From NCBI GenBank assembly GCA_028736075.1, contig CP117875.1:2542001-2606000 (forward strand): 64,000 bases of DNA. Direction: 5' to 3'. The notes beneath the pieces were generated by a model, which was given only the letters and a program-made list of their open reading frames with translations, was not told the origin of the DNA and did no database searches. The translations under genes and the position numbers were made by a program. This document shows positions 6,253 through 43,603 of this stretch, one piece after another (positions within the stretch are counted from its first letter, which is position 1; every line of letters begins with the position of its first letter). This DNA is from Chryseobacterium sp. KACC 21268. GTDB lineage: Bacteria; Bacteroidota; Bacteroidia; Flavobacteriales; Weeksellaceae.

Positions 6253-6376
6253 GATGAGTTTTTTAATAACCATATTACAATATACGTGCTAATAAATCAA
6301 ATTTTAATCATTATGAATAAGAATGTGTAAAAATATTAAAGCATCTTTATTTAAGAACAATAAAAGGACTTTTGTA

Positions 6377-6384
6377 TATCTTTG
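6377..6384 (+). promoter_or_regulatory. -7 promoter element TATCTTTG of the PAS kinase
   Basis: Exact match to TAnnTTTG, 26 bp before the ATG at 6411. It overlaps the upstream alternative start at 6372, which argues that translation begins at 6411. The leader that follows carries CATACGTATA (6386-6395). Confidence 0.6.
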
Positions 6385-6410
6385 TCATACGTATAATTAC
6401 TCAAGAAAAT

Positions 6411-8393
6411 ATGTCCGATAAAAATTTCAGTCAGGATCTAATCATCCAGGCTTTAGTTTCATCTCCTGCACCCACAGCAATCTATTCTGGAGAAGAAATG
6501 GTCATCCAATTTGCAAACGAAGGTATGCTGGCGCTATGGGGCAAAGATGCATCTGTAATAGGAAAACCTTTGATGGACGCAATCCCGGAGCTGGAGGGAC
6601 AACCGTTTTTAGAATTATTGAGGGAAGTTTGGCGTTCTGGTAAGACCTATTCCGTGCACGAAGCTCCTGCAAAACTTATAAAAAACGGGGTGGAAACGCT
6701 GGATTATTTTGATTATGAATACAAGGCACTTACGGATCAGCAAAATAAGACCTGGTGCATTCTTAATACAGCACTTGAGGTAACATCCCGACGCGAATTC
6801 TTGCAGCAGATAAAGCAAAAAGAAGAGCGGGAAAATGCACTGAATGAGGAAATGGCTGCTACACTTGAGGAACTGACATCCACCAATGAGGAACTGAATA
6901 CATCAATGCAGCAGCTTGCACAAAGCAGAGAGTACATTAAAACAATTATCGAGCAGGCTCCTGTTGGCATTGCGATGCTGGAAGGACCAGAGCACGTCAT
7001 TGAAATTGCTAATCCGGCCATTCTTAATATATGGGGTCGCAAAGAATCTGAAGTCATAGGACATCCACACGAAAGTGCAAGACCAGAATTGCGAGGCCAA
7101 CCTGTCAATGACTGGCTTAGAGAAGTTTACAATAATGGAAAGCCTAAAATAAATACCGAGTTTACGGTTAGATTACGCCATAATGATGGATTAAGGGAAG
7201 CTATTGTAAATTCCATTTATCAACCAATTTTTACTGATCGTGGCGATATTTCGGGTGTTCTTGTCATTATCGAAGAAATCACTGAACAGGTTTTAGCAAG
7301 GAGGAAGAATGAAAATGATCAGCAAATGCTGGCTCTTGCCATCGATGCTGGGGAACTTGCCACCTTCTACTACCAACCGGCAACAAACTTGTTTTCAGGA
7401 AACAACCTGCTGAAAAATTGGTTTGGCTTATCTTCGGAAGAAAATCTGGACTTGTCTGTTGCGTTAGCCGCAATTTTGCCGGAGGATCGGGAGCGTGTAG
7501 TTACAGCCATCGCAAATGTTTTGGGGAAAGATTCTGATGGTCAATATTTTATCGAATATAAAATTCAAAATAAAACAGACAAAAAGATTAGACTCTTACA
7601 GGCTAACGGCAGAGTTTTCTATGATCAGGAAGGAAATCCACAAAGTCTAAACGGTACTTTGAGAGATATTACAAAACAGAAAAAAGAGGAGGAAAGAAAA
7701 GATGATTTTATGGGCATGGTAAGTCACGAGCTCAAAACACCGCTCACTTCTCTTAAGGCCTATATACAAATTTTACAACGTTTGGAAGCACGTGAGGGAG
7801 ATTCAAAACAACAAAGCATCTTAGAGAAATGTTTGAAGCAAACGGATTATATGAACAATATGATCAATGGTTTTCTTAATGTTTCAAGACTTGATTCGGG
7901 ACAGTTACATATTGAAAAAACAGATTTTGATTTCCAAGTTTTATTCTCAGAGATTGAGGATGAAGTACTTTCCACCAATCAAACCCGCAATTTTGTTTTC
8001 AGGCCATCCGGGCAGGTTATGATTCAGGCGGATCGTGAAAAAATATCACAGGTACTTCACAATCTTATTGGGAATGCTATTAAGTACTCTCCCATTGGTA
8101 CTTCCATTAATGTAGAATATCTGACGAAGGATCAAAACAATTTAATAATTAATGTTCAGGACCACGGAATTGGAATCTCGGAAAATGATCAGCAGCGAAT
8201 ATTTGACCGCTATTACAGGGTGAAAGATATGAATAGCAGATCCATAGCAGGATTCGGTATTGGACTTTATCTTTGTAGAGAAATCATAGAACTACACAAT
8301 GGAGTTATCCAAGTGGAGAGTTCTAAAAATGAAGGTACCATATTTTCTGTTGTCATTCCTATTGCAGATTCAAACACATCAAAAGAGATCTAA
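6411..8393 (+). CDS. multi-PAS sensor histidine kinase
   Basis: 660 aa from ATG 6411 (an upstream in-frame start at 6372 would overlap the promoter). No membrane segment, so a cytoplasmic sensor. Order: PAS ~10-135, a coiled coil rich in EELTSTNEELN ~135-175, PAS ~175-300, PAS with PAC end ~305-425, HisKA with MVSHELKTPLTSLKAY (phospho-His439), and HATPase_c with the N box NLIGNAIKYS, G1 DHGIGIS and G2 GFGIGLYLCREI. All catalytic motifs are intact. No response regulator is adjacent, so its partner is elsewhere. The PAS ligand is unknown. Confidence 0.9.
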   Translation: MSDKNFSQDLIIQALVSSPAPTAIYSGEEMVIQFANEGMLALWGKDASVIGKPLMDAIPELEGQPFLELLREVWRSGKTYSVHEAPAKLIKNGVETLDYFDYEYKALTDQQNKTWCILNTALEVTSRREFLQQIKQKEERENALNEEMAATLEELTSTNEELNTSMQQLAQSREYIKTIIEQAPVGIAMLEGPEHVIEIANPAILNIWGRKESEVIGHPHESARPELRGQPVNDWLREVYNNGKPKINTEFTVRLRHNDGLREAIVNSIYQPIFTDRGDISGVLVIIEEITEQVLARRKNENDQQMLALAIDAGELATFYYQPATNLFSGNNLLKNWFGLSSEENLDLSVALAAILPEDRERVVTAIANVLGKDSDGQYFIEYKIQNKTDKKIRLLQANGRVFYDQEGNPQSLNGTLRDITKQKKEEERKDDFMGMVSHELKTPLTSLKAYIQILQRLEAREGDSKQQSILEKCLKQTDYMNNMINGFLNVSRLDSGQLHIEKTDFDFQVLFSEIEDEVLSTNQTRNFVFRPSGQVMIQADREKISQVLHNLIGNAIKYSPIGTSINVEYLTKDQNNLIINVQDHGIGISENDQQRIFDRYYRVKDMNSRSIAGFGIGLYLCREIIELHNGVIQVESSKNEGTIFSVVIPIADSNTSKEI

Positions 8394-10560: not shown

Positions 10561-11121
10561 TTATTTATTAGCTTTAGAATTGAGATTCGTATCAGCCAGT
10601 TTTGTCAATAATTCATCACAGGTTTTTTCTTCGCCTAATGTCGCTAGTAAATTAACCAAAGCATCCTTTTCTTTCAGCACTTTTGCAAACGCTGCCAAAG
10701 TACCATAGGTTGCAATTTCGTAATGCTCCACTTTTTGTGAGGCAGCAATGATTCCTGCATCACGCACGGTTCCAGGCTCCGTTTCTTCGATGATGCTGTC
10801 GGCTTCGTCTAATAATCCCTGCATGGCATCACACTTTTTCGCCTGTGCCTTTACGCCGATAGATTCAAAGATATCTTCCAATCGGCTTACCTGTCCTTTG
10901 GTTTCCTCGAGGTGTTGTGCGATTGCCTGCTTCAAAGTTTCATCTGTAGCATTTTTCTGCATTTTTGGTAAGGCTTTCACTAATGCTTTTTCTGCCCAAT
11001 AGATGTCTTTCAAACTATCTTCGAAAAGATCCTTTAGTTCTTTTGCTGCATCACTTTTTGCGGGTGTTTTTTTCTCTTTACTGGTTGCAGTACTTGTCGT
11101 TGTTTTTGAATTTGTTGCCAT
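10561..11121 (-). CDS. YciE/DUF892 ferritin-like protein
   Basis: 186 aa. After a low-complexity Thr/Ser/Lys N-terminus of ~28 residues comes the DUF892 (YciE/YciF) four-helix bundle: ELKDLFEDSLKDIYWAEKAL, then QHLEETKGQVSRLEDIF and a later EHYEIATYGTL, whose Glu/His residues fit a di-metal ferritin-like site. Members are typically induced by osmotic, oxidative or stationary-phase stress. Its promoter carries the TTATGA-N6-TCATAA-type box at 11201, shared with the catalase and glycan operons. The Lys/Ser-rich head may bind nucleic acid, which is speculation. Confidence 0.9.
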   Translation of the reverse strand: MATNSKTTTSTATSKEKKTPAKSDAAKELKDLFEDSLKDIYWAEKALVKALPKMQKNATDETLKQAIAQHLEETKGQVSRLEDIFESIGVKAQAKKCDAMQGLLDEADSIIEETEPGTVRDAGIIAASQKVEHYEIATYGTLAAFAKVLKEKDALVNLLATLGEEKTCDELLTKLADTNLNSKANK

Positions 11122-11172: not shown

Positions 11173-11180
11173 CAAAACTA
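11173..11180 (-). promoter_or_regulatory. -7 element TAGTTTTG of the DUF892 gene
   Basis: Perfect TAnnTTTG on the minus strand, 52 bp before the start codon at 11121. Its centre is exactly 33 bp from the centre of the palindromic box at 11201-11218. Confidence 0.65.
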
Positions 11181-11200: not shown

Positions 11201-11218
11201 TTATGACTGGAATCACAA
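11201..11218 (-). promoter_or_regulatory. Crp-type box 1 (TTATGA-CTGGAA-TCACAA)
   Basis: First of five copies of a TTATGA-N6-TCATAA palindrome; 11 of 12 arm bases match. Reads upstream of the DUF892 gene, near -40 relative to its predicted transcription start, the position of a class II activator. Confidence 0.65.
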
Positions 11219-11258
11219 TGCAATATAATCGCTTAAAAAAGTATTGAAATTGAAAAAA

Positions 11259-11858
11259 TCAATACAGAATTTTTCGGTTTCTGATTCTTACAATATTGTC
11301 CTTTTCCATTGTCTTTATGGTTCTGATGGTTGTTTCAACACAAAGACCAGTAAGATTAGCCATTTCCTGACGTGTGTAGGGAACCTGAAAGGCAAATGGT
11401 TCTTTTGCATGTTGACTGCTTTTCAAATAGTCCAAAAAGGATTTCAGCTTGTACATTGGACTGTTTGTACAAAGAATCGGTCCCATTTTTTGTTTGAAAT
11501 AAAGGATTTGAGAAAGGTGTCGATTCATTTCCAGACTTACTTCTGGATTTTTATCCAGCAAATCAAAAAATGCAGATTTTCGTAGTTTGAAGATTCTGCA
11601 GCTGGTGATTGCGACCGCATTTACAGGATAGGTTACATTTTCCACAAAAAGAAGAGATTCTCCGATGCTTTGTCCAGGCTCCAAAATAGTCTGAAGCACT
11701 TCTCTGCCTTCGTGGTTGTAGTTGTTGAGTTTTACTTTACCATTGTTAATCTGGTAGTAGTATTTGGGGATTTCATCTTCTGAGAAGATAGATTCTCCTG
11801 CCAGGAAATTTTCGGTAGTTGCACCCAGAGATTCCAGAATGAGTTCATTAATAATCAT
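11259..11858 (-). CDS. Crp/Fnr family transcriptional regulator (paralog 1)
   Basis: 199 aa. Cyclic-nucleotide-binding-like beta roll ~15-110 (YYYQINNGKVKLNNYN, EPGQSIGESLLF), dimer helix ~110-140 and winged HTH ~150-199 (YTRQEMANLTGLCVETTIRTIKTMEK, split here as helix pair). The recognition helix has V-E-T-T-I-R: CRP Glu181 and Arg185 equivalents are kept, Arg180 is Val. No N-terminal Cys cluster, so not an FNR-type iron-sulfur sensor. It is clearly related to the regulator at 12723, and is a candidate to bind the local TTATGA-N6-TCATAA boxes. Confidence 0.9.
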   Translation of the reverse strand: MIINELILESLGATTENFLAGESIFSEDEIPKYYYQINNGKVKLNNYNHEGREVLQTILEPGQSIGESLLFVENVTYPVNAVAITSCRIFKLRKSAFFDLLDKNPEVSLEMNRHLSQILYFKQKMGPILCTNSPMYKLKSFLDYLKSSQHAKEPFAFQVPYTRQEMANLTGLCVETTIRTIKTMEKDNIVRIRNRKILY

Positions 11859-12276
11859 AATTGATAATGGTAGATTTCTAATGATCAGATCTCATAAATA
11901 GAACCAGGAGAAAAGTGTGATGTGTTACTTCGATTTTTCTAAATAATTCAATTTTTTAACTGATGTACAGTCCACAAAATTTATTATTCCAGAATATTTA
12001 AATCGTAATTTTTATATAATATTTACCTTTCAAATCTTGTGCCTTAATTAATGATATTTATACAAATAAAATAATATCGGTGATTAATTTCAATTAAATA
12101 TATTATTAGCTTAAATAATTCATATATTTACAGATATTGATATGAAAAGATTCGTCCCGAAGCAATGATAGTAGATTGAGAAAATAGGATGATGTTTGTT
12201 TGAAAAATCACCATCTTCCCTTTTCTCTTATCAGTGCTTACTCAGAACGAAAATTTAATTTTAAAAAAGTAGAATT
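11859..12276. other. 418-bp AT-rich intergenic stretch
   Basis: Separates the first Crp-family gene from the small lipoprotein gene. I see no open frame of note, no clear -7 element on the minus strand for the upstream regulator, and only an imperfect TGA-N7-TCA palindrome near 11883-11896 that does not fit the local box spacing. Confidence 0.5.
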
Positions 12277-12507
12277 CTATTTTGCCGAATCTTTTCTGGC
12301 AGAAGACGAAGTTGAAGTACTGTCGCTGGAAGAACCCGAATTGGACATTGATGCAGTCGTACTGTCTGTTTGCGGCGCTGGATTTGGGATTGCAGCAGAA
12401 CTGTCGGATACGAGAGAATCATTGTTCATAGAATTTGTTTCAGTAGTATCTTTCTTAGAACAACTGATGATGAATAAAAAACTCATCGTTAAGAATAATT
12501 TTTTCAT
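12277..12507 (-). CDS. small Ser/Thr-rich lipoprotein
   Basis: 76 aa. Signal peptide with lipobox FIISC (Cys16), then a low-complexity tail almost entirely Ser, Thr, Asp, Asn and Pro, ending in ARKDSAK. Such tails are typically disordered. It has one of the Crp-type boxes (12560) with a perfect -7 element (12532-12539), so it is probably co-induced with the stress genes around it. It sits between the two Crp-family genes. Function unknown. Confidence 0.75.
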   Translation of the reverse strand: MKKLFLTMSFLFIISCSKKDTTETNSMNNDSLVSDSSAAIPNPAPQTDSTTASMSNSGSSSDSTSTSSSARKDSAK

Positions 12508-12531
12508 AATAATTTATTTTTTGGTATCTAT

Positions 12532-12539
12532 CAAAGCTA
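12532..12539 (-). promoter_or_regulatory. -7 element TAGCTTTG of the small lipoprotein gene
   Basis: Perfect TAnnTTTG on the minus strand, 25 bp before the start codon at 12507, with its centre exactly 33 bp from the centre of the box at 12560-12577. Confidence 0.65.
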
Positions 12540-12559
12540 TGACAGTTACAGAATAAACT

Positions 12560-12577
12560 TTATGACCTGAATCATAT
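12560..12577. promoter_or_regulatory. Crp-type box 2 (TTATGA-CCTGAA-TCATAT)
   Basis: 11 of 12 arm bases match the shared palindrome. It faces the small lipoprotein gene on the minus strand. On the plus strand TAATTTCG at 12598-12605 (one mismatch to TAnnTTTG) is also centred exactly 33 bp away, so the box may also act on the second Crp-family gene. Confidence 0.65.
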
Positions 12578-12722
12578 TAATAAAATAGTTTGTTGATTAA
12601 TTTCGCACAGCTTAAAAATAGAGCCTTCAATTAATTTATAAATTATTGTATTCAATTATCTATCAATAACTTATTTCTGTTTAAATCTATTTTAAAACTA
12701 ATTGTCATTAAACCATAATAAA

Positions 12723-13316
12723 ATGATTGCGGAAGAATTACTATTGTCATACGGTGCAGAATATGAAAAGTTCAAACGTGGTGACATTATTTTCAACGAA
12801 GGCGAGACTCCAAAATGTTATTATCAAATCGTAAATGGAAGAATAAAGCTGAATCACTACAACGAAGCGGGAAAAGAATTGATATTAGCGATCTTACAAC
12901 CTGGTCTCAGTGTTTGTGAACTTTTACTTTTTATTGATAAAAAATATCCAGTGAATGCTGTGGTTTTTGAGGAAAGCACCGTCCTGAAATTATCAAAAGC
13001 TAAGTTTATAAAAATGCTGGATGATCATCCTAATCTATCTAGAGACGTCAATAAATTTCTGTCCGAAAGATTGTACTACAAATTTGTGATGCTGGAAAAT
13101 AATGCATCATTGCAGGCAGATGTAAGAATCAAAGGCGTTTTGGATTATCATAAAAGTTTCAGTTCAGACATGAGTCAGTTTTCTTATCAGGTTCCATTGA
13201 CTAGGCAGCAGTTGGCTTCCATTACAGGACTTCGTGTCGAAACTGTAATCCGAACTATTAAAAATCTTGAGAAACGAGAAGTTCTTAAAATCATTAATAG
13301 AAATATTTATTATTAA
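12723..13316 (+). CDS. Crp/Fnr family transcriptional regulator (paralog 2)
   Basis: 197 aa from ATG 12723; a TTG 21 bp upstream is the only longer start. Same architecture as the regulator at 11259, sharing YYQIVNGRIKLNHYNE-type beta roll, PVNAV motif and winged HTH with LRVETVIRTIKNLEK. The V-E-T-V-I-R recognition helix keeps the CRP Glu181 and Arg185 positions. The two genes flank a lipoprotein gene and probably arose by duplication. The effector is unknown; residues for cAMP are not obviously conserved. Possibly autoregulated through the box at 12560. Confidence 0.9.
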   Translation: MIAEELLLSYGAEYEKFKRGDIIFNEGETPKCYYQIVNGRIKLNHYNEAGKELILAILQPGLSVCELLLFIDKKYPVNAVVFEESTVLKLSKAKFIKMLDDHPNLSRDVNKFLSERLYYKFVMLENNASLQADVRIKGVLDYHKSFSSDMSQFSYQVPLTRQQLASITGLRVETVIRTIKNLEKREVLKIINRNIYY

Positions 13317-13329
13317 TATAAATTCAAAT

Positions 13330-13367
13330 AACACAAAACCCACCTGTAAAAGTGGGTTTTGTGTTTT
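13330..13367 (+). terminator. rho-independent terminator
   Basis: ACACAAAACCCAC / GTGGGTTTTGTGT perfect 13-bp stem with an 8-base loop, followed by TTTT, 14 bp after the second Crp-family gene. Confidence 0.85.
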
Positions 13368-13428
13368 CCAAAACTACAGAATTGAAAAATTTGAGTTTGT
13401 TTCTGAAGTTTTTAGAAAAATCAATTAA

Positions 13429-13617
<189 letters not shown>

Positions 13618-13626
13618 TTATTAAAA

Positions 13627-14793
13627 TTAAATCCACGGATCCAAAACGACTTTCACACAGCCATCTTCTTTTTTGTGGAAGATCTCGTAGCCTTTCGCCA
13701 CATCGGTGAGACTAAGTTTGTGCGTGATGATATCATCCAATTTCACCTGCCCGGTTTCTACATATTTCAGAAGTTTATCGATGATGGTATGAACAGGACA
13801 TTGTCCACCTTTGATCGTGATGCCTTTGTCGAACAATTGACCAACTCTGAAGTTGTCGTAATTAACAGGATAGACTCCCAAAATAGAAACAGTACCGCCT
13901 CTCTTGACACCGCTCATACAAGCTTCCAAAACTTTGATCGACCCTTTTTCGAAGTTGATAACCGCTTTGGCCTTGTCCAAGAAATCTCTCTCTGGCTCGA
14001 ATCCAACCGCATCGATACAAAGATCTGCGCCGCGTCCGTTTGTCAAGCTTCTGATTTCCTCCACGACCTGTTCCGCATTCTCCCAAAGAATCGTTTCGCA
14101 ACCTGTCAGCTTTTGAATCTGATCCAGTCTGTATTGCAAAGTATCGATCACGATGACTTTTTTCGCATTGTGTAGAATGGCACTTTTCACAGACATCGAT
14201 CCAACTGGACCTGCACCGAAAATAGCTACTGTTTCTCCACCTTTCAGATCGCCCCACATTACGCCAACATAGCCTGTCGGGAAAATATCTGTGAGGAAAA
14301 GCACTTGTTCGTCGGTTAAATTATCAGGCACTTTTCTCGGTCCGAAATTAGCGGAAGGAACACGTACATATTGCGCTTGTCCGCCATTGTGACCGCCATA
14401 CAAATCTGTGTAGCCGAACATACCGCCACCTTTCTCTGTCAAGATTCCACCTTCTGGACCATAATGATCCGGATTGCTATTTTCACAAGCTGTTGGCAAT
14501 CCGTGTTCGCAGAAATAACAGCCTCCACAAGCGATTGGAAAAGGTACGACTACCCGATCGCCGACTTTGAGATGGTTGATATTCTTTCCAACTTCTTCTA
14601 TGATCCCCATAAACTCGTGTCCCATTACCATTGGTCTGGCCTGCGGAATGCTACCGGTGTACATATGGAGATCACTGCCACAGATTGCTGTGGAAGTCAC
14701 TTTTAGGATGATGTCATTTTGATCCTCAATGATTGGATCTTCTACCGTGTCGCAAGTAATTTTACCTGGTGCGTGAAAAACTGCTGCTTTCAT
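13627..14793 (-). CDS. zinc-dependent alcohol dehydrogenase (MDR family)
   Basis: 388 aa medium-chain dehydrogenase resembling glutathione-independent formaldehyde dehydrogenases. Catalytic zinc ligands are in AICGSDLHMYTG (Cys) and GHEFMG (His, Glu). The structural-zinc lobe is CGGCYFCEHGLPTAC. The Rossmann motif is GAGPVGSMS. It starts 30 bp downstream of the catalase stop, so the two form an operon; this catalase-adh pairing suggests detoxification of aldehydes or related products under oxidative stress. The true substrate is unknown. Confidence 0.92.
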   Translation of the reverse strand: MKAAVFHAPGKITCDTVEDPIIEDQNDIILKVTSTAICGSDLHMYTGSIPQARPMVMGHEFMGIIEEVGKNINHLKVGDRVVVPFPIACGGCYFCEHGLPTACENSNPDHYGPEGGILTEKGGGMFGYTDLYGGHNGGQAQYVRVPSANFGPRKVPDNLTDEQVLFLTDIFPTGYVGVMWGDLKGGETVAIFGAGPVGSMSVKSAILHNAKKVIVIDTLQYRLDQIQKLTGCETILWENAEQVVEEIRSLTNGRGADLCIDAVGFEPERDFLDKAKAVINFEKGSIKVLEACMSGVKRGGTVSILGVYPVNYDNFRVGQLFDKGITIKGGQCPVHTIIDKLLKYVETGQVKLDDIITHKLSLTDVAKGYEIFHKKEDGCVKVVLDPWI

Positions 14794-14823
14794 ATTTTAA
14801 TATTTTGTGGTGATTTGATGTTT

Positions 14824-16965
14824 CTAAGCAGGATTGTTTCTTTCCGTTTCCAATTCCCAAACGCGGTGGTTGGCAATTGCTTTGATGAAAGCTTCGTCTG
14901 CGTTTTGACTTTCTGAGGTGACAATCGCAGGATCCTTATGTTTCTTGCTTGCGACCTGACTCGCTTTGAAGATTTCATCTGTGTCTGTTCCGAAATAGAT
15001 CGCTTTGCAATGTTTGTAAGCTTCATTCACAAAATGAACAGTTCCAGGTTTGTTATCTTCATTTAAAAGATTGTCTGAAGATGATTTTCCGCTACAGATA
15101 TATAAAGCATCAAAACAAACGCTGGCTGTACTGGTCAAAGAATGCTTAGGCGTAAAACTGCTTCCATTATCTGCTTTGACTGGTGAAAGACTTCCGGCGA
15201 TGATTTGAACCTCTGCACCTTCGGACTCTAATTTTGATTTTAAAGAATTGACATCTGAAGCATTTACGCCATCTTCCATAATGAAACCTACCACTCGACT
15301 TTCTATGGAATCTTTCGCCGTATTTTTCATACTGAGTGCGTCTGAACTTTTAGTTGCCGGTTCTCTTTCCTCACTTTGAAGTGTTTTCGGATCGGCATCG
15401 GCGGGAATACTTTGGTTGGGTTGTTCGAGTTTTGTCACATCAACACCAACTTTCTTTGCTACATTTTTTGCTAGATCTTTATCTATGAAATTAAGTTGAC
15501 CAACCATTCTTTCACGGATTGCCGGGATTTTCACTTTCGAAAGTTCAAAGATCAAGGCATCCTGAATGTGTTTCTTTTCTGGCGCACTTTGGCTGTTGAC
15601 AAATAATTTGGCTTGAGAATAATGATCCACGAAACTCTGGCTTCTGGCTCTAACTTTATGGCCATCTACTCTTTCGCCGTGCGATACAAATCCACCATCT
15701 TTCATCATCGACTGGAATGGACATCCGCCACCGATGGAATTTGGCTCGTAACTCACTTTTCCTTTTGAGATCTGTTGACGCATATGTCCGTCGCGCTGGT
15801 TGTTATGAACTGTATTTAATGATCGGTTGATTGGAATCTCGTGGAAATTAGGAGAACCTAATCTTGACAATTGTGTGTCGGTGTAAGAAAACAATCTGCC
15901 TTGCAACAAAGGATCATTACTGAAATCAATTCCTGGAACCAAATGTCCCGGATGGAAAGCGATCTGCTCCGTTTCTGCAAAGAAGTTGTCTGGATTTCTG
16001 TTCAATGTCAAAGTTCCGAAGATTTGAACCGGAACTTCTTCCTCGGGAACTAATTTGGTTGGGTCCAAAAGATCAAAATCAAACTTATGTTCATCTGCTT
16101 CCGGAATCAGTTGTACACCAAAATCCCATTCTGGAAATGCACCACTATCAATCGCTTCCCAAAGATCTCGTCGGTGAAAATCCGGATCTTTTCCTGAAAT
16201 TTTCGTCGCCTCGTCCCAAGCTACAGAATGAACACCCAATTTCGGTTTGAAATGGAATTTAACAAAATGAACATCGCCAGCGTCATTAATAAATTTAAAT
16301 GAATGAACGCCGAAACCTTCCATCATTCGGTAACTTCTTGGAATTGCGCGATCGCTCATCAGCCACATTATCATATGCATACTTTCCGGCATCAATGAAA
16401 TAAAATCCCAAAAAGTATCGTGCGCGGAAGAAGCTTGCGGAATTTCATTGTCTGGCTCAGGTTTTACAGCGTGAACAAGGTCTGGAAACTTCATCGCATC
16501 CTGAATGAAGAACACAGGCATATTGTTCGCAACGAGATCATAATTCCCTTCCTCTGTATAGAATTTAACTGAGAAACCTCTCACGTCTCTCGCCAAATCT
16601 GTACTTCCACGGCTTCCGCCAACGGTAGAAAATCTAGTGAAAACCGGAACTTCTTTTCCAACGTCTGTCAGGAATTTTGCTTTGGTGAATTCCTTCAAAC
16701 TTTTCGTCAGTTTGAAAACGCCGTGTGCTCCGGAACCTCTTGCGTGTACGATTCTTTCCGGAATTCTCTCGTGGTCAAAATGCGTGATCTTTTCTCTTAG
16801 AATGAAATCTTCCAACAGACTTGGCCCTCTTTCGCCAGACTTCAAAGAATCCTGGTTGTTGTTGACTTTAAGACCTTGATTGGTCGTCAACGCTTTGTCC
16901 GAATTGTCTGTTGTGTGATCCTGAAGCTGATCTACTTTTTCACTCTTACTTTTGTCATTTTCCAT
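14824..16965 (-). CDS. katE: large-subunit (clade 2) catalase
   Basis: 713 aa from ATG 16965; a TTG 33 bp upstream is less likely. Breaks down hydrogen peroxide in the cytoplasm. Heme-active-site motif [13 protein letters not shown] with His74, an Asn in VANNMPVFF, and the proximal tyrosine motif RLFSYTDTQ. The C-terminal ~170 residues ([17 protein letters not shown], then a DJ-1/PfpI-like fold with ALYICSG) are the extra domain of HPII-type catalases. First gene of an operon with the alcohol dehydrogenase and a tiny membrane protein. Promoter has Crp-type box 3. Confidence 0.97.
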
Positions 16966-17026
16966 AGAAATATTTTTGATAGGTTTATTTTTTATCAATT
17001 ACAATAATTGTTGATTTGGTAATACG

Positions 17027-17034
17027 TAAAGATA
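17027..17034 (-). promoter_or_regulatory. -7 element TATCTTTA of katE
   Basis: TAnnTTTG with a final A, on the minus strand, 62 bp before the ATG at 16965; its centre is exactly 33 bp from the centre of the box at 17055-17072. Confidence 0.6.
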
Positions 17035-17054
17035 GCCGGACGAACAGCGGGAGT

Positions 17055-17072
17055 TTATGATTTGAGTCATAA
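17055..17072 (-). promoter_or_regulatory. Crp-type box 3 (TTATGA-TTTGAG-TCATAA)
   Basis: Perfect 6-bp arms. Serves katE: its centre is near -40 of the predicted katE start site. Read on the minus strand the spacer is CTCAAA, in line with the C..AA pattern of the other boxes. Confidence 0.7.
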
Positions 17073-17162
17073 CCGAAACTATTAATCAAAAATAAAATGA
17101 TTATAACTTATTGAAATTCAAATTATAAATCGTTATAAAATACATTTTAAATATCAGCTTTG

Positions 17163-17180
17163 TTATGACCGCAATCATAA
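17163..17180 (+). promoter_or_regulatory. Crp-type box 4 (TTATGA-CCGCAA-TCATAA)
   Basis: Perfect 6-bp arms. Serves the plus-strand glycosyltransferase operon; the -7-like TAGATTTA at 17201-17208 is centred exactly 33 bp downstream. Confidence 0.7.
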
Positions 17181-17200
17181 ATAAGGCAAAATTTACGGCT

Positions 17201-17208
17201 TAGATTTA
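17201..17208 (+). promoter_or_regulatory. -7 element TAGATTTA of the glycan operon
   Basis: TAnnTTTG with a final A; predicted start site near 17215, giving a leader of about 97 nt before the ATG at 17312. Confidence 0.55.
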
Positions 17209-17311
17209 CAGTCCACAATTGCTCTTTAATTTCGGCTAAAATCACATTCTATTCTGATGTAGAGCTTTGGAAATACTTTTCATCCAATATTGTGATAATA
17301 CATTTTTATCT

Positions 17312-18412
17312 ATGCAAAATATTCTATGTTTCAGCCATTTACATTGGGATTTCGTTTACCAGCGACCGCAACACTTGTTGACCAGATTTGCTAAACAAAA
17401 CAAGGTTTTTTATATCGAAGAACCACGCAACAGCATTTCTGACTTTTACGAGATCGACTTGCAGGATGGCGTTTCCATTATTAAAATTTTCATTAATGAT
17501 GATCAGGAAAACAGAAATCAAAGGTTGGAAAAACTCATCAGCAAAATTCTGGCAGATCAAAACATAAAAACCTATTCCTGCTGGTACTACACGCCAATGG
17601 CTTTGGAATATACATCGCATCTGAAACCTCAGATAACGATCTACGATTCTATGGATGAGCTGTCCGCATTCCGATTTGCACCACCACAATTGTTGGATTT
17701 GGAAAATGAACTGTTCAAAAAAGCAGATGTGGTCTTCACTGGTGGACACACGCTTTATCAGGCAAAAAAAGACCGTCACCACAACATTCATCCGTTTCCG
17801 AGTAGTATAGATAAAGCGCATTTTCAAAAAGCACGATTTAATAAAATAGATGCCGAAGATCAAAAACATATTCCGAATCCGAGGTTTGGATTTTATGGCG
17901 TGATTGATGAACGATTCGATATTGAGTTGTTGAGAGAAGTTTCTGCACAAAGACCAGATTGGCATTTTGTGATCATTGGTCCCGTGGTAAAAATCGATGT
18001 TAATGAACTTCCTAGAGCTGAGAACATTCATTATCTCGGTTCGAAAAAGTATTCGGAATTGCCAGATTACATCAGCCATTGGGATATTGCATTGGTCCTT
18101 TTTGCCATCAATGAATCGACGGAATTTATCAGCCCAACCAAAACGCCAGAATATCTTTCGGCCGGACTTCCGGTGATTTCTACGCCGATCAAAGATGTTG
18201 TGAAACCATATGGAGAAGCCAATTTGGTGTATATCGCAGACAATGCCGAAACTTTTATCGCTTACGCTGAGGAAGAACTTGGTAAAGATTCCAAAAAAGA
18301 ATGGCTGGCAAAAGTGGATGAATATCTGGCAGATGAATCTTGGGACAACACATTCGAAAAGATGAATCAATTAATTAACAACGTCAAAAAAACCAACGGA
18401 ATCTATGTATGA
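17312..18412 (+). CDS. glycosyltransferase, GT-B fold
   Basis: 366 aa from ATG 17312 (MQNILCFSHLHWDFVYQRPQ); the longer version needs a TTG. The N-terminal HWDFVYQRPQHLLTRFA segment is typical of one family of GT4/GT1-like transferases, and the C-terminal nucleotide-sugar site contains FISPTKTPEYLSAGLPVIS. No signal peptide or membrane segment. It overlaps the UDP-galactopyranose mutase gene by 8 nt, so it probably transfers galactofuranose or builds the acceptor for it. The product glycan is unknown. Confidence 0.85.
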   Translation: MQNILCFSHLHWDFVYQRPQHLLTRFAKQNKVFYIEEPRNSISDFYEIDLQDGVSIIKIFINDDQENRNQRLEKLISKILADQNIKTYSCWYYTPMALEYTSHLKPQITIYDSMDELSAFRFAPPQLLDLENELFKKADVVFTGGHTLYQAKKDRHHNIHPFPSSIDKAHFQKARFNKIDAEDQKHIPNPRFGFYGVIDERFDIELLREVSAQRPDWHFVIIGPVVKIDVNELPRAENIHYLGSKKYSELPDYISHWDIALVLFAINESTEFISPTKTPEYLSAGLPVISTPIKDVVKPYGEANLVYIADNAETFIAYAEEELGKDSKKEWLAKVDEYLADESWDNTFEKMNQLINNVKKTNGIYV

Positions 18413-19511
18413 TTTTTTAATTATCGGTTGCGGATTCGCCGGATCGGTCTTGGCAGAAAGGTTAGCTAATGAAGGAAAAAAGGTTTTGATTGTTGACAAA
18501 CGAAATCACATTGCTGGAAATGCCTACGATTTTTACAATAAAGAAGGCATCTTGATCCACAAATATGGCCCACATATTTTCCATACAAACTCCGAAGATG
18601 TTTTCAAATACTTAAGCAAATTCACAGAATGGCGACCTTATGAACATCGCGTTTTGGGCAGTGTTGACGGGCAATTGGTTCCGATTCCAATCAATCTGAC
18701 AACCATCAATAAACTTTATGGAAAGAATTTGACTTCCGATGAAGTTGTGAGTTTCTTAGCCTCAAAAGCTGAACTTCGCAAACCCGTTTTGACTTCGGAA
18801 GATGTCGTTTTGAACGTCGTTGGAAAAGAACTTTACGAAAAATTTTTCCGTAGCTACACCAAGAAACAATGGGATCTTGACCCGTCAGAATTAGACGCTT
18901 CGGTGACTGCAAGAGTTCCGACGAGAACAAATGCCGACGACCGATATTTCACAGATTCTCTGCAGGCGATGCCGAAAAACGGTTACACAGAAATGTTCCA
19001 GACAATGCTTTCCCACAAGAATATCCACGTGATGTTGAACACGAACTACAAAGATATTGTCGATATCATTCCGCATAGACAATTGATCTACACTGGTCCG
19101 ATCGACGGCTATTTTGATTATCAATTTGGGAAATTGCCTTACAGATCAATCGATTTCAAATTCGAAACTTTGGATCAGGAAAATTATCAGGAAACGGGAA
19201 CTATCAATTATCCGACTTCAAATCTTTATACAAGGATCACGGAATTCAAACATCTCACTGGACAAAAGCACCATAATACAACCATCGTTTACGAATATCC
19301 GACGGCGGAAGGTGATCCCTATTATCCAATTCCAAGAAAGGAAAATCAGGACGTGTACAATCAATACAAAAAATTGGCAGAAGAAACGCCAAATGTCTTT
19401 TTCACAGGGCGATTGGGAACTTACAAATATTACAATATGGATCAAGTCGTAGCGCAATCTTTGGCGCTTTTCCGAAAGATCATCAAAGAAGAAAATGCAG
19501 TACAACAGTAA
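18405..19511 (+). CDS. glf: UDP-galactopyranose mutase
   Basis: 368 aa FAD-dependent enzyme that interconverts UDP-galactopyranose and UDP-galactofuranose. N-terminal dinucleotide motif IIGCGFAGSVLAERLA; typical KYGPHIFHTN, FFRSYTKKQWDLDPSEL, YTGPIDGYFDYQFG and TEFKHLT blocks; length standard for the family. Gene overlaps both neighbours (8 nt before, 17 nt after), so the three are translationally coupled. Its presence implies galactofuranose in a surface polysaccharide. Confidence 0.97.
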   Translation: MYDFLIIGCGFAGSVLAERLANEGKKVLIVDKRNHIAGNAYDFYNKEGILIHKYGPHIFHTNSEDVFKYLSKFTEWRPYEHRVLGSVDGQLVPIPINLTTINKLYGKNLTSDEVVSFLASKAELRKPVLTSEDVVLNVVGKELYEKFFRSYTKKQWDLDPSELDASVTARVPTRTNADDRYFTDSLQAMPKNGYTEMFQTMLSHKNIHVMLNTNYKDIVDIIPHRQLIYTGPIDGYFDYQFGKLPYRSIDFKFETLDQENYQETGTINYPTSNLYTRITEFKHLTGQKHHNTTIVYEYPTAEGDPYYPIPRKENQDVYNQYKKLAEETPNVFFTGRLGTYKYYNMDQVVAQSLALFRKIIKEENAVQQ

Positions 19512-20664
19512 TCCCATCAATTTTAAAAATCCTTTTCAATCCTTTCTGATGGCTGGTTTCGAATGTGCAGACCAGCAAAATGCCTTTGGCGAACGAGTGG
19601 ATTTAATCAAATTAACTGGCCACGATCGTTTCATTAATGAAGATTATCAGCGTCTGACGGAAATCGGAATCACAACCATTCGCGAAGGCATCCGTTGGAG
19701 TTTTGTTGAGAAATCGCCGTTCGTTTACGACTGGTCGCAGGTTGAAGAGATTATTATTAATGCAAAAAATAATGGCATCCAGGTCATTTGGGACATTTGT
19801 CATTTTGGATTTCCAGATGATTTGACACCTTTGCATCCAATGTTTGCAAGGCGATTCTCACATTTGTGCAGAACTTTCGTTTTGAAATACAGAGGTTTGG
19901 TTCCTGATGGCGAATTAATTGTCACACCAATCAACGAAGTCAGTTTTCTGTCTTGGCTTGGTGGCGATGCGAAAGGCACGAGTCCGTATTGCGTGAATCA
20001 AGGTTGGGAAGTGAAATATATGCTGATGAAAGCCTACATCGAAGGGATTGAAATGATGAAGGAAATCGATCCAAGCATCAAAATAATGACAACGGAACCT
20101 TTGGTCAATATCATTTCTTCCAATTTGTCAGATCCATTTTCAGTTCTTAAAGCCAATGAAAAACATCAGGAGCAGTTTCAGGTTCTGGAAATTCTGACAG
20201 GAAAATTGTGTCCTGAACTCCGAGGAAAACCGGAATATCTGGATTTGATTGGCGTTAATTTTTATCATAATAATCAATGGACGTTTCCGGAACATCAATT
20301 CATTCCGTGGAAAGAAACGCCTCCAAGTCCACATTGGCGAAGTCTGCATTCATTAATTGAAGAAGTTTATATCAATTACGGAAAACCAATTGTACTGTCA
20401 GAAACCAGTATTCCTGAAAATGACAGACGAGATTGGCTTAAGATGATTTCTGATGAATGTCTATCGATTTTGAAAAGTGGAATTCCCTTCTATGGATGTT
20501 GCATCTACCCAATTATTGATCGTCCAGACTGGGATTTTCCAGATGAGTGGCACCACAGCGGATTTTGGGATATTACGAATTTGGAAACTTTGGAAAGGGA
20601 AATTCATACTGATAGTTTGAAAGCATTAGAATCGTTATTACAAATTAAAATTGAAAACTACTAG
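19495..20664 (+). CDS. glycoside hydrolase-like protein (clan GH-A)
   Basis: 389 aa, no signal peptide. TIM-barrel features of clan GH-A: TIREGIRWSF near the start, VTPINEVSF with the probable acid/base Glu after an Asn-Glu pair, and IVLSETSIPEND with the probable nucleophile Glu. Similar proteins are annotated as family 1 glycosidases or beta-glucosidase-like. It overlaps glf by 17 nt, so it works on, or trims, the same glycan. Being cytoplasmic it could also be a sugar-binding or transglycosylating enzyme; substrate unknown. Confidence 0.78.
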   Translation: MQYNSNPINFKNPFQSFLMAGFECADQQNAFGERVDLIKLTGHDRFINEDYQRLTEIGITTIREGIRWSFVEKSPFVYDWSQVEEIIINAKNNGIQVIWDICHFGFPDDLTPLHPMFARRFSHLCRTFVLKYRGLVPDGELIVTPINEVSFLSWLGGDAKGTSPYCVNQGWEVKYMLMKAYIEGIEMMKEIDPSIKIMTTEPLVNIISSNLSDPFSVLKANEKHQEQFQVLEILTGKLCPELRGKPEYLDLIGVNFYHNNQWTFPEHQFIPWKETPPSPHWRSLHSLIEEVYINYGKPIVLSETSIPENDRRDWLKMISDECLSILKSGIPFYGCCIYPIIDRPDWDFPDEWHHSGFWDITNLETLEREIHTDSLKALESLLQIKIENY

Positions 20665-20733
20665 TTATTACCTACTGATTTTATGTAATTAAATCAATAA
20701 ACAAATCAAAATATGTAGTAAATCGGTTTGGCT

Positions 20734-20751
20734 TTATGACCTGAAACATAA
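20734..20751 (+). promoter_or_regulatory. Crp-type box 5 (TTATGA-CCTGAA-ACATAA)
   Basis: 11 of 12 arm bases match. The spacer CCTGAA is identical to that of box 2. A -7-like TATGATTTG follows at 20772-20780, centred 33-34 bp downstream. Confidence 0.6.
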
Positions 20752-20771
20752 ATTAATAATTTTTTTGTGCT

Positions 20772-20780
20772 TATGATTTG
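20772..20780 (+). promoter_or_regulatory. -7-like element TATGATTTG of the FAD/NAD(P) gene
   Basis: TAnnnTTTG, one base longer than consensus, 46 bp before the ATG at 20827. Its first bases resemble a half-site of the box, but there is no second arm. Confidence 0.45.
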
Positions 20781-20826: not shown

Positions 20827-22545
20827 ATGCAGAATATCGATTCTCAAACCATTGCGCTGATTGGCGGTGGACCTGCTGCTCTTCTGGTATTGAAGAATAT
20901 TATTGATAGTCAAATCAATGCTTCAACTATTTTTGTGTTTGAAAAAAATGAAAGATTAGGCGTTGGAATGCCTTATGGAAGATTGGGTGCAGGAAAGGAA
21001 CACGTTGCGAATGTATCAGCAAACGAACTTCCTCACTTTCAGATCAGTTTCGAAGAATATCTAAGTCAAAATCCTACAAACGAATTTCCTGATTTTTCTG
21101 TGGATGGAAAATGCAATCCATACCAAGTCATTCCAAGACTTCTATTGGGAAATTATCTGGAATTTACATTCAAATATTACATCAAAGAAGCCAAGAAAAA
21201 AGGCATCAAAGTCATTAGTAAAACCAACAGCGTTGTAGATGATATCATCAAAAGTGCAGATAGACAGCAATTCAAAATCCTGGTTAATCAAAACGAGGAA
21301 TATTTAACTGATAAAGTGATTTTATGCACCGGACATTATTGGCCAAAAAAGTACGAAGAAACAAAAACCGGATGGTACGATTCGCCATATCCGCCAACAA
21401 AATTCCAATTACAATCGAACTTTCCCATCGCCATTCGCGGCACATCACTCACTGCGGTAGATGCTGTGAAAACGCATTCCAGACTGAATGGAAGATATGA
21501 AACAACGTCTGATGGACAGATGAAATATATTTTGAATGAAGGATCAGAAAACTTTCGGATCGATATGTTTTCCACAGGTGGTTTTTTGCCCGCACTAAGA
21601 TTCCATTCCGAAGAGGAAGCATATTCCAACGACTGGACGATGTCACTTGACGAAATCTATGACTACAAAACTAAAAATAACGGTTTTGTAGATTTGGATC
21701 ACGTCTTTGAGATTAATTTCAAACTTCCCCTCAAACAAAAAGATTTAGATTTTTATAATAAAATTAAAGATCTTAGCATCGAAGAATTTGTGAAAGAAAT
21801 GATGGCTATCAGAAAGGAACTGGACAGTTTTCAACTTTTCAAAGCGGAATACAACGAAGCCGAAAAATCCATCAGGAGACATCAGTCGATCAGCTGGAAA
21901 GAAGCACTGTCTGCCTTCAGTTATTCTATGAATTATCCTGCAAAGCACTTTTCTGCTGAAGATATGCTGCGTTTGAAAAAGACGCTTTTACCTTTGATTT
22001 CCATCATTATCGCATCACTTCCACAATCTTCTTACAAAGAAATTATTGCCCTGCACAATGCTGGAATTATCGATTTGATCCAAGTCGATAGAGAAAGCTT
22101 TGTAGAGCCACACTCCGAATCTGGCGGCATCTACCATTATAAATCTATTGAAAATATCAATTCACAAAAACATTACCAATTGTATATTGACGCCGTTGGT
22201 CAACAATCATTGGAACTGGAGGATTTGCCTTTTGAAGGTTTAAGATCGGGTCAGTTTGTGAGCTCTGCATATCTGAATTTTAAGGATAATAATGACGCCA
22301 TGAGCTTACTGCAAAACAATGAGACCAATGTAAGAAAAGGCTACAACGACAATTATTATATGAAAGTGCCAGGATTGGAAATCAATGATTATTTTCAGTC
22401 GTTGAATCCTTATGGACAGACTGTTGATAATGTTTTCATAATGGCTGTACCCTTTATTGGTGGGCTAAATCCTGATTATTCCGGACTGGATTTTTGCGAC
22501 ACAGCAGCTGAAAGAATTGTCAAAGTATTAAAACAACAGGCTTAA
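20827..22545 (+). CDS. FAD/NAD(P)-binding protein (HpyO/NAD_binding_9 type)
   Basis: 572 aa. N-terminal FAD motif IALIGGGPAALLVLKNI, GMPYG (typical of this family) and a second nucleotide segment VILCTGHYWPKKY. The C-terminus ends with NPDYSGLDFCDTAAERIV, the usual closing FAD contact region. The reaction is not established for the family; a soluble oxidoreductase is the safe call. Own promoter with Crp-type box 5, so it is probably induced with katE and the glycan operon. Confidence 0.83.
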   Translation: MQNIDSQTIALIGGGPAALLVLKNIIDSQINASTIFVFEKNERLGVGMPYGRLGAGKEHVANVSANELPHFQISFEEYLSQNPTNEFPDFSVDGKCNPYQVIPRLLLGNYLEFTFKYYIKEAKKKGIKVISKTNSVVDDIIKSADRQQFKILVNQNEEYLTDKVILCTGHYWPKKYEETKTGWYDSPYPPTKFQLQSNFPIAIRGTSLTAVDAVKTHSRLNGRYETTSDGQMKYILNEGSENFRIDMFSTGGFLPALRFHSEEEAYSNDWTMSLDEIYDYKTKNNGFVDLDHVFEINFKLPLKQKDLDFYNKIKDLSIEEFVKEMMAIRKELDSFQLFKAEYNEAEKSIRRHQSISWKEALSAFSYSMNYPAKHFSAEDMLRLKKTLLPLISIIIASLPQSSYKEIIALHNAGIIDLIQVDRESFVEPHSESGGIYHYKSIENINSQKHYQLYIDAVGQQSLELEDLPFEGLRSGQFVSSAYLNFKDNNDAMSLLQNNETNVRKGYNDNYYMKVPGLEINDYFQSLNPYGQTVDNVFIMAVPFIGGLNPDYSGLDFCDTAAERIVKVLKQQA

Positions 22546-42955: not shown

Positions 42956-43603
42956 ATGAAAACAAAACTAATCATTTTTGATGAGCAGGTTTTTTATACC
43001 GAAGGCCTCTCTAAACGCCTTACTGATGGGCAAATTTTTGATTTGGTGTACATTTGCAATTCCTATAAAGAACTTTCCAAACAGTTTAACAATCAAGCTC
43101 CAGAATTCCTGATGTTGGGATCTAACTGCCTGGCGCTAACCGAAATGTACACTTTGATACAAGATTTGGTAAGTCAACACGATAATATCAAAATTATTGT
43201 CATCGGTAATTTTTTCGAAATGTCTGAGATCAGAAAACTTTTTGACAAAGGGATTAAGAGTTATCTGGATATTAATTGCGGATACAATGAACTTGTAAAA
43301 TCTTTTAGCGCGCTGAACTCGGGAATGATTTATATCTGTGATTCTGCAAAGGAGCGTATGATGGATTTTCTAAGTCATAAAAAAAATCAGTATGGCTATC
43401 AATTAAAAGAAGCACTTACCAAAAGGGAGCTGGAAGTCTTACAGTTGATCTGTGACGGGCTGAGTAGCAAGAAAATTTGCGAAAAACTGTTTATCAGTAT
43501 TAACACCGTGGAGACACATCGCAAAAAAATATTATTAAAATTCAATGTGAAAAATTCCGCGAGTGTCGTAAAGTATGCTATGGATAACCACATGTTAGGA
43601 TAA
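42956..43603 (+). CDS. LuxR-type regulator with degenerate receiver (CsgD-like), copy 1
   Basis: 215 aa. Receiver-like N-terminal domain (~1-120) and a LuxR/FixJ helix-turn-helix (~145-210: LTKRELEVLQLICDGLSSKK, then ISINTVETHRKKILLKFNVK). The receiver keeps Asp9-Glu10 but where the phospho-acceptor Asp is expected (PEFLMLGSNCL) it has Gly55, so it cannot be phosphorylated there. Same length and organisation as E. coli CsgD (216 aa, also an atypical receiver). Adjacent to the curli genes, whose promoters share a motif it may bind. Confidence 0.88.
   Translation: MKTKLIIFDEQVFYTEGLSKRLTDGQIFDLVYICNSYKELSKQFNNQAPEFLMLGSNCLALTEMYTLIQDLVSQHDNIKIIVIGNFFEMSEIRKLFDKGIKSYLDINCGYNELVKSFSALNSGMIYICDSAKERMMDFLSHKKNQYGYQLKEALTKRELEVLQLICDGLSSKKICEKLFISINTVETHRKKILLKFNVKNSASVVKYAMDNHMLG

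Follow-up and report, generated by a model that had tools for sequence, protein, structure and literature searches.

A conserved CRP-like promoter box with predicted class II geometry in Chryseobacterium sp. KACC 21268 and its relatives

Related regulatory systems

At the textbook class II promoters of Escherichia coli, CRP and FNR bind a two-fold box with a TGA-N6-TCA core, centred at -41.5. A box of similar build, the 18-bp palindrome TTATGA-N6-TCATAA, recurs in a 64,000-nucleotide stretch of Chryseobacterium sp. KACC 21268 (GenBank assembly GCA_028736075.1, contig CP117875.1, positions 2,542,001 to 2,606,000 of the forward strand). This whole stretch is referred to as the window and positions are counted from its first letter. 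The core, the predicted centre and the protein family of the candidate binders are those of the E. coli systems, whereas the TTATGA arms, the TAnnTTTG -7 element, the Y/F-P pair at the cyclic AMP (cAMP) contact and the lack of an FNR-type cysteine cluster set the present system apart. The binder most likely represents a little-known branch of this well-known activator family. It is highly probable from the genomes compared that the box is the operator of a Crp/Fnr clade giving class II activation of a stress-type regulon.

The general stress regulons of RpoS and SigB, which are alternative sigma factors, include KatE, YciE-type DUF892 proteins and KGG-repeat proteins. The genes behind the present box overlap with this set in all three, but here Crp/Fnr-type proteins would act at a TAnnTTTG promoter in place of an alternative sigma factor. 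To our knowledge, the general stress response of Bacteroidota without RpoS or SigB is poorly known; the results below supply, for two genera, a candidate regulator set, a precise predicted operator, the exact layout of the promoter and a list of targets.

Another comparison is offered by the Nss/Dnr-type regulators, whose hosts Wolinella and Nitrosophilus are presumably Campylobacterota. According to the accessible part of their description, these are likewise Crp/Fnr proteins with a TTGA-N6-TCAA consensus close to the present core, and exact sites are found 48-49 bases before the predicted starts of napA, norE and nosB (PMC11539149). They differ in serving nitrogen-oxide respiration and in numbering two to three proteins per organism, and no link to katE or DUF892 was seen in that part of the paper (PMC11539149). 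In the accessible part of a promoter map of Flavobacterium psychrophilum, the same TAnnTTTG -7 element is placed at -12 to -5; the motifs presented there are sigma-factor motifs, and the terms 'CRP', 'FNR' and 'TTATGA' have no occurrence in its main text as accessible (PMC9723704). A literature search (mainly open journals, no preprints, the slashed form 'Crp/Fnr' being unsearchable) gave no such Crp/Fnr regulon in Chryseobacterium or relatives among the matches listed, and works pairing TTATGA with TCATAA concerned, judged by their titles, other subjects only.

Geometry and conservation of the promoter

A preliminary description of the window had reported five palindromes at a fixed distance from -7 elements. 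All five were recovered by palindrome scan, starting at 11201, 12560, 17055, 17163 and 20734, with respectively 11, 11, 12, 12 and 11 of 12 arm bases matching. For the first four the centre-to-centre distance is 33.0 bp as described, that is, 20 bp between the 18-bp box and the 8-bp -7 element (N20; N21 denotes 21 bp). The box 11201..11218 (-), which reads TTGTGATTCCAGTCATAA on that strand, is followed by TAGTTTTG (11173..11180, -), the box 12560..12577 (-) by TAGCTTTG (12532..12539, -), the box 17055..17072 (-) by TATCTTTA (17027..17034, -) and the box 17163..17180 (+) by TAGATTTA (17201..17208, +). The fifth box, 20734..20751 (+), is weaker: one of its arm bases is mismatched, and a canonical -7 element is missing at both N20 and N21; the distance of 33-34 bp attributed to it holds for the non-canonical -7-like TATGATTTG (20772..20780, +), which is one base too long. 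The CRP-like geometry of the palindrome was also borne out. The spacer does tend to C..AA as had been noted, but this is one side of a symmetric extension, TGAYY-NN-RRTCA, and the box consensus is WTATGAYY-NN-RRTCATAW. Two other sites in the window were dropped: 54993, without a -7 element, and 43218, which has TAATTTTG at N21 but falls within the open reading frame (ORF) 42956-43603 and has a poor box (score 10.1 versus 18-23 for ten model sites, the latter scores being circular because the matrix was built from those same ten chosen sites).

When the position of the -7 element in F. psychrophilum is carried over, an N20 box would span -50 to -33 with its centre at -41.5 and an N21 box would be centred at -42.5. 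The first value is where CRP and FNR sit as class II activators, and the N20/N21 spacing taken together with the F. psychrophilum position supports the class II placement near -40 that had been proposed. A dimer bound over -50 to -33 could also hide the -33 element, so that the protein might instead repress by blocking this region. Sharp spacing is typical of activators, repressor sites usually tolerating shifts, and the two-value N20/N21 spacing makes repression improbable.

The bare palindrome is modestly enriched. In the window, 19 copies with at most two mismatches were found where 8.1 are expected, and the 4.07-Mb host genome has 52 places with at most one mismatch versus 33 for the reversed control (1.6x), a result that would fit chance palindromes in an AT-rich genome. 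What stands out is the full promoter, not the bare palindrome. In the host genome it gave 65 matches versus 39 in the control at up to three mismatches, and four of the seven best matches (zero or one mismatch) lie in the window; a relaxed promoter pattern gave seven matches versus two controls, five being known boxes and two probably chance. Across the 23 Epilithonimonas genomes (the genus of the host), the Y/R-extended box with N20 and a -7 element was matched 81 times at up to one mismatch, in 20 genomes, and the control 0 times. A free-gap search over 31 gap values in the same genus returned 91 matches, hand-counted as 47 at N20, 24 at N21, 14 belonging to a single recurrent element whose gap is shorter, and 6 others. 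The recurrent element, TATGATATTTATCATAyC...TANATTTG, keeps its shorter gap fixed (for example G000, 3276349-3276388, -), occurs in 14 of the 23 genomes and is apparently a different conserved promoter or element.

The spacing was also examined in 80 loci of relatives drawn around regulator genes, which hold 95 distinct exact boxes versus 2 for the reversed pattern. From these boxes, TANNTTTG is placed at N20 in 49 cases and at N21 in 30; among the other distances from 5 to 39 it occurs only at N5 (four cases) and N18 (one). Counting -7 elements of the TTTG, TTTA or TTCG type, 90 of the 95 boxes have one at N20/N21 on at least one side. ATG-started ORFs of at least 120 aa, counted on either strand, cover 79% of the 80 loci, yet contain none of the 95 boxes. 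These counts are not independent, since the choice of loci followed the regulators and many of the promoters are orthologues of one another; the locus-choice bias does not affect the genus and family searches. Given the 81 full promoters versus none, the absence of exact boxes from ORFs and the N20/N21 spacing, chance palindromes are rejected as practically inconceivable. Among individual loci, L068:4966 was dropped, its good box having no -7 element at N20/N21, and L067:4560, with only TAAATTCG at N21, was retained among the 160 promoters considered below. In several relatives' N21 promoters (e.g. L148:10399, L212:6610 and L142:5823), the stretch separating box and -7 element contains a second dyad similar to TGACAnnTGTCA.

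Comparison of orthologous promoters, which had been suggested as a check, showed that four of the five keep box and distance in relatives while the spacers diverge. The katE box TTATGACTCAAATCATAA with N20 is kept in Epilithonimonas caeni, E. hungarica and strain FH1, and E. lactis has a one-mismatch N21 form. The DUF892 promoter has box and N20 in both orthologues found, E. lactis (one core mismatch) and FH1. The lipoprotein promoter box is kept in E. caeni, E. hungarica and FH1, and at N21 in E. lactis; that of the glycan operon is kept with its distance in E. lactis, FH1 and strain JDS. For the FAD gene the sole orthologue found (E. lactis, G008) shares the imperfect right arm, and the canonical -7 element is absent there too. 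Ahead of the two close orthologues of the gene for P0004, one of the regulators described below, a good box was not found. Box 12560 has in addition, at N20 on its opposite side and toward a crp gene, the -7-like TAATTTCG (12598..12605, +), which the preliminary description had missed. By script rule 5 of 155 boxes are two-sided, and four of these five are this same locus in the window, E. caeni, E. hungarica and E. lactis; the crp-side element is kept as TAATTTCG or TAAATTCG in the three relatives. Here a single class II box likely serves a pair of divergent promoters. That the box pattern is real and conserved, with predicted class II geometry, is clear from these comparisons. Neither of the outcomes that the preliminary description had named as refuting it, boxes equally common within genes or lost from orthologous promoters, was observed.

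The candidate binder

The host genome encodes 19 matches of the cyclic nucleotide (cNMP)-binding type, 18 of them above the family cut-off. Four form a clade, P0001-P0004, with 44-69% mutual identity and at most 21% to the rest. All four are encoded in the two box clusters of the genome, two in the window (P0004, 11259..11858, -; P0001, 12723..13316, +, open frame from 12702) and two at 2.50 Mb. Each carries the PF00027 sensor domain and the Crp-type helix-turn-helix PF13545 above cut-off. The recognition-helix residues E and R predicted to read TGA, which we take to be E181 and R185 of CRP, are conserved in 142/142 and 141/142 clade proteins, respectively, and column entropy averages 0.93 bits for the helix-turn-helix segment versus 1.67 for the sensor. 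The pair R82-S83 of CRP, presumably the phosphate contact of cAMP, aligns with Y/F-P in the clade (Y75 in 133 and P76 in 136 of 142); cAMP is thus probably not the signal, this contact being replaced. FNR proper is, we assume, marked by an N-terminal cysteine cluster; no such cluster is present in P0001-P0004, which have no cysteine in their first 30 residues.

We regard this clade with good confidence as the regulator. A dimer of P0001-P0004 would bind the predicted operator TTATGAYYNNRRTCATAA, centred at -41.5 (N20) or -42.5 (N21) and reaching into the -33 region; at TAnnTTTG promoters it would act as a class II activator by recruiting RNA polymerase. In the host genome, this would switch on katE, the DUF892 gene, the small lipoprotein gene, the CinA-domain gene, the response regulator gene, the glycan operon and the acyl-CoA dehydrogenase/PIG-L operon. 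The regulon would further include the KGG-repeat protein in relatives and the regulator genes themselves, once from one two-way box. Box, spacing, conservation, gene context and co-occurrence are read directly from the genomes, and from them we infer binding, activation, start sites and the stress role.

Co-occurrence was examined in 296 genomes of the family, where the clade (E<=1e-35) was found in 180. The strict promoter pattern is present in 209 of the 296 (reversed control 0 in the genomes listed), which does not agree with the promoter set being 'local', as first described. In the host genus, strict sites occur in 16 of 17 genomes with the clade versus none of 6 without (Fisher 7e-5), and in g20, the largest other genus drawn, in 129 of 142 versus none of 7 (Fisher 3e-7); pooled, this amounts to 145/159 clade genomes and 0/13 clade-less ones. 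Another factor might bind the box, for instance the 248-250-aa Crp/Fnr protein found genus-wide (L048 type), which likewise carries a Crp-type recognition helix. Every one of the 23 Epilithonimonas genomes has it, also the six that lack strict sites, and it therefore does not track the sites; being universal in the genus regardless of them, it is a very unlikely binder.

Several observations weigh against an activating operator of this clade. The -41.5 position is compatible with repression too, the excess of the bare palindrome is slight, and 5 of the 95 exact boxes are without a -7 element. On the crp side of box 12560 the element departs from the consensus, and strains FH1 and JDS do not have it. 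No strict site is found in 14 of the 159 clade-bearing genomes of the two genera, and three of the six clade-less Epilithonimonas genomes (G004, G015 and G019) have one match each at one mismatch. In the remaining genera the first test was weak, with strict sites in 15/21 genomes with the clade versus 49/103 without (Fisher 0.057); a lower threshold, chosen after the fact and applied to those 49 site-bearing genomes only, gave a distant member in 45 (E 5e-27 to 2e-35). The other four (G072, G095, G096 and G112) have only a type of 237-238 aa. All co-occurrence p-values are overstated because the genomes are related. As an isolated case, G004, a genome without a strict site, has a regulator fragment with a stop codon only (G004:C9:51138-51341).

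The distant members bear on the history of the clade. In 30 of them that were fetched, E and R of the recognition helix are kept without exception. A tree built from 95 rows (P0001-P0004, 60 random ones of the other 138, the 30 distant members and one outgroup) separates these 30 from the 64 clade rows with support 98/97; its root is unsure because the outgroup branch is very long. Thirty loci were also fetched from the 49 other-genus genomes with sites and without a close clade member (L213-L242). In 25 of them the start of a NosZ-like ORF was recognized by eye, ~530-620 bp downstream of a box at N20/N21; one has a cytochrome c gene after the box and the other four have different genes. Three of the 25 NosZ-like ORFs were checked and match Sec-dependent NosZ under the cut-off, since the loci end inside the gene. 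In G047 (L278:2486-11512) the box is followed by cytochrome c, nosZ (929.7 bits, cut-off 625), nosD, an ABC ATPase and further genes, and a distant relative of the regulator lies on the opposite strand at the end of the nos cluster. Judged by coordinates, the regulator is ~7-12 kb from the site in most g26 and g10 genomes, though not, for example, in G088 (g10) and G023 (g2), and it immediately follows a box in G034 and G169. This suggests a common ancestor of the stress paralogs and a nos regulator.

The same clade could instead bind as a redox or nitrogen-oxide regulator, the regulon being a low-oxygen or nitrosative response and not one of general stress. TTGA-N6-TCAA Crp/Fnr sites at denitrification genes in Wolinella and Nitrosophilus, in the part of the report that was accessible, speak in its favour (PMC11539149); the targets in the host genome, however, are catalase, DUF892, glycan and others (no nosZ search was made there), and the compared sensor segment differs between the clade and the distant group. 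We consider this reading doubtful. Within the proposed stress-type regulon, it is tentatively possible that in Chryseobacterium/Epilithonimonas a nos-related Crp/Fnr regulator was multiplied and that its paralogs jointly fill the role of a stress sigma factor, many signals acting on one operator; the nearly unchanged DNA-reading heads and the diverging sensors would then point to several signals converging there. This may amount to a rewiring between nitrous-oxide respiration and stress protection. At least ten clade matches are present in some genomes.

In a set of 296 genomes from the whole order, which also includes members of the family, 85 carry the strict pattern; the control matched once in G348 and once in G519. 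At many of the extra-family sites the box centre is AT-rich, and these may be sites of other proteins. Separately, TGACATTTGTCA also forms the core of the box that precedes sdhC in G088 (NCBIfam match) and G112 (by eye).

Target genes and the window neighbourhood

The regulon is not local, as it had been called, within the host genome either: a second box cluster ~50 kb away, at 2.50 Mb, has the CinA-domain gene, the gene of a response regulator and a crp gene as its targets. One more good member, located at 3.26 Mb, stands ahead of genes for an acyl-CoA dehydrogenase, a PIG-L protein and a methyltransferase. In total 160 box promoters (from the 80 named loci, the window and L065-L073) were assigned a downstream gene by automatic ORF pick, three of them receiving none. 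The picks comprise clade regulators (41), an acidic protein (20), small lipoproteins (16), katE (9), a 101-aa unknown (9), DUF892 (8), a response regulator (8), a cyanophycinase-like protein (8), a glycosyltransferase (6), a 203-aa protein (4), a CinA-domain protein (4) and smaller groups. The KGG stress repeat was confirmed in the one acidic protein checked; one cyanophycinase-like protein scores under the cut-off of that family. Because leaders can be long, a small first gene is sometimes skipped: for six of the 41 regulator picks the leader exceeds 350 bp, and a different gene may precede the one picked. The 'stress' label given earlier to the regulon agrees with katE and DUF892 in the host genome and the KGG-repeat protein in relatives, gene content being its sole basis.

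In the window, the DUF892 gene (10561..11121, -; PF05974, E 3.3e-54), which we take to be ferritin-like and of the YciE type, lies behind the box at 11201. On the minus strand of the two-way box at 12560 lies the small lipoprotein gene (12277..12507, -), an ORF whose lipobox-like start was judged by eye, and on its plus strand P0001. The katE and glycan promoters stand back to back (17055-17180) with boxes 108 bp apart. The gene katE encodes a long catalase (14824..16965, -, with the start taken from the automatic pick and the open frame extending to 16998; PF00199, PF06628, PF18011) and is followed in the same direction by a zinc alcohol dehydrogenase gene (13627..14793, -; PF08240, PF00107). 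The glycan operon (17312..20664, +) consists of overlapping ORFs for a glycosyltransferase (PF13692), a UDP-galactopyranose mutase (PF03275) and a product without Pfam match. A gene for a PAS-domain sensor histidine kinase (6372-8393) lies near the box cluster, and the matrix scan scored no box ahead of it. The weaker box at 20734 precedes the gene for a FAD-NAD(P)-binding protein (20827..22545, +; PF13454).

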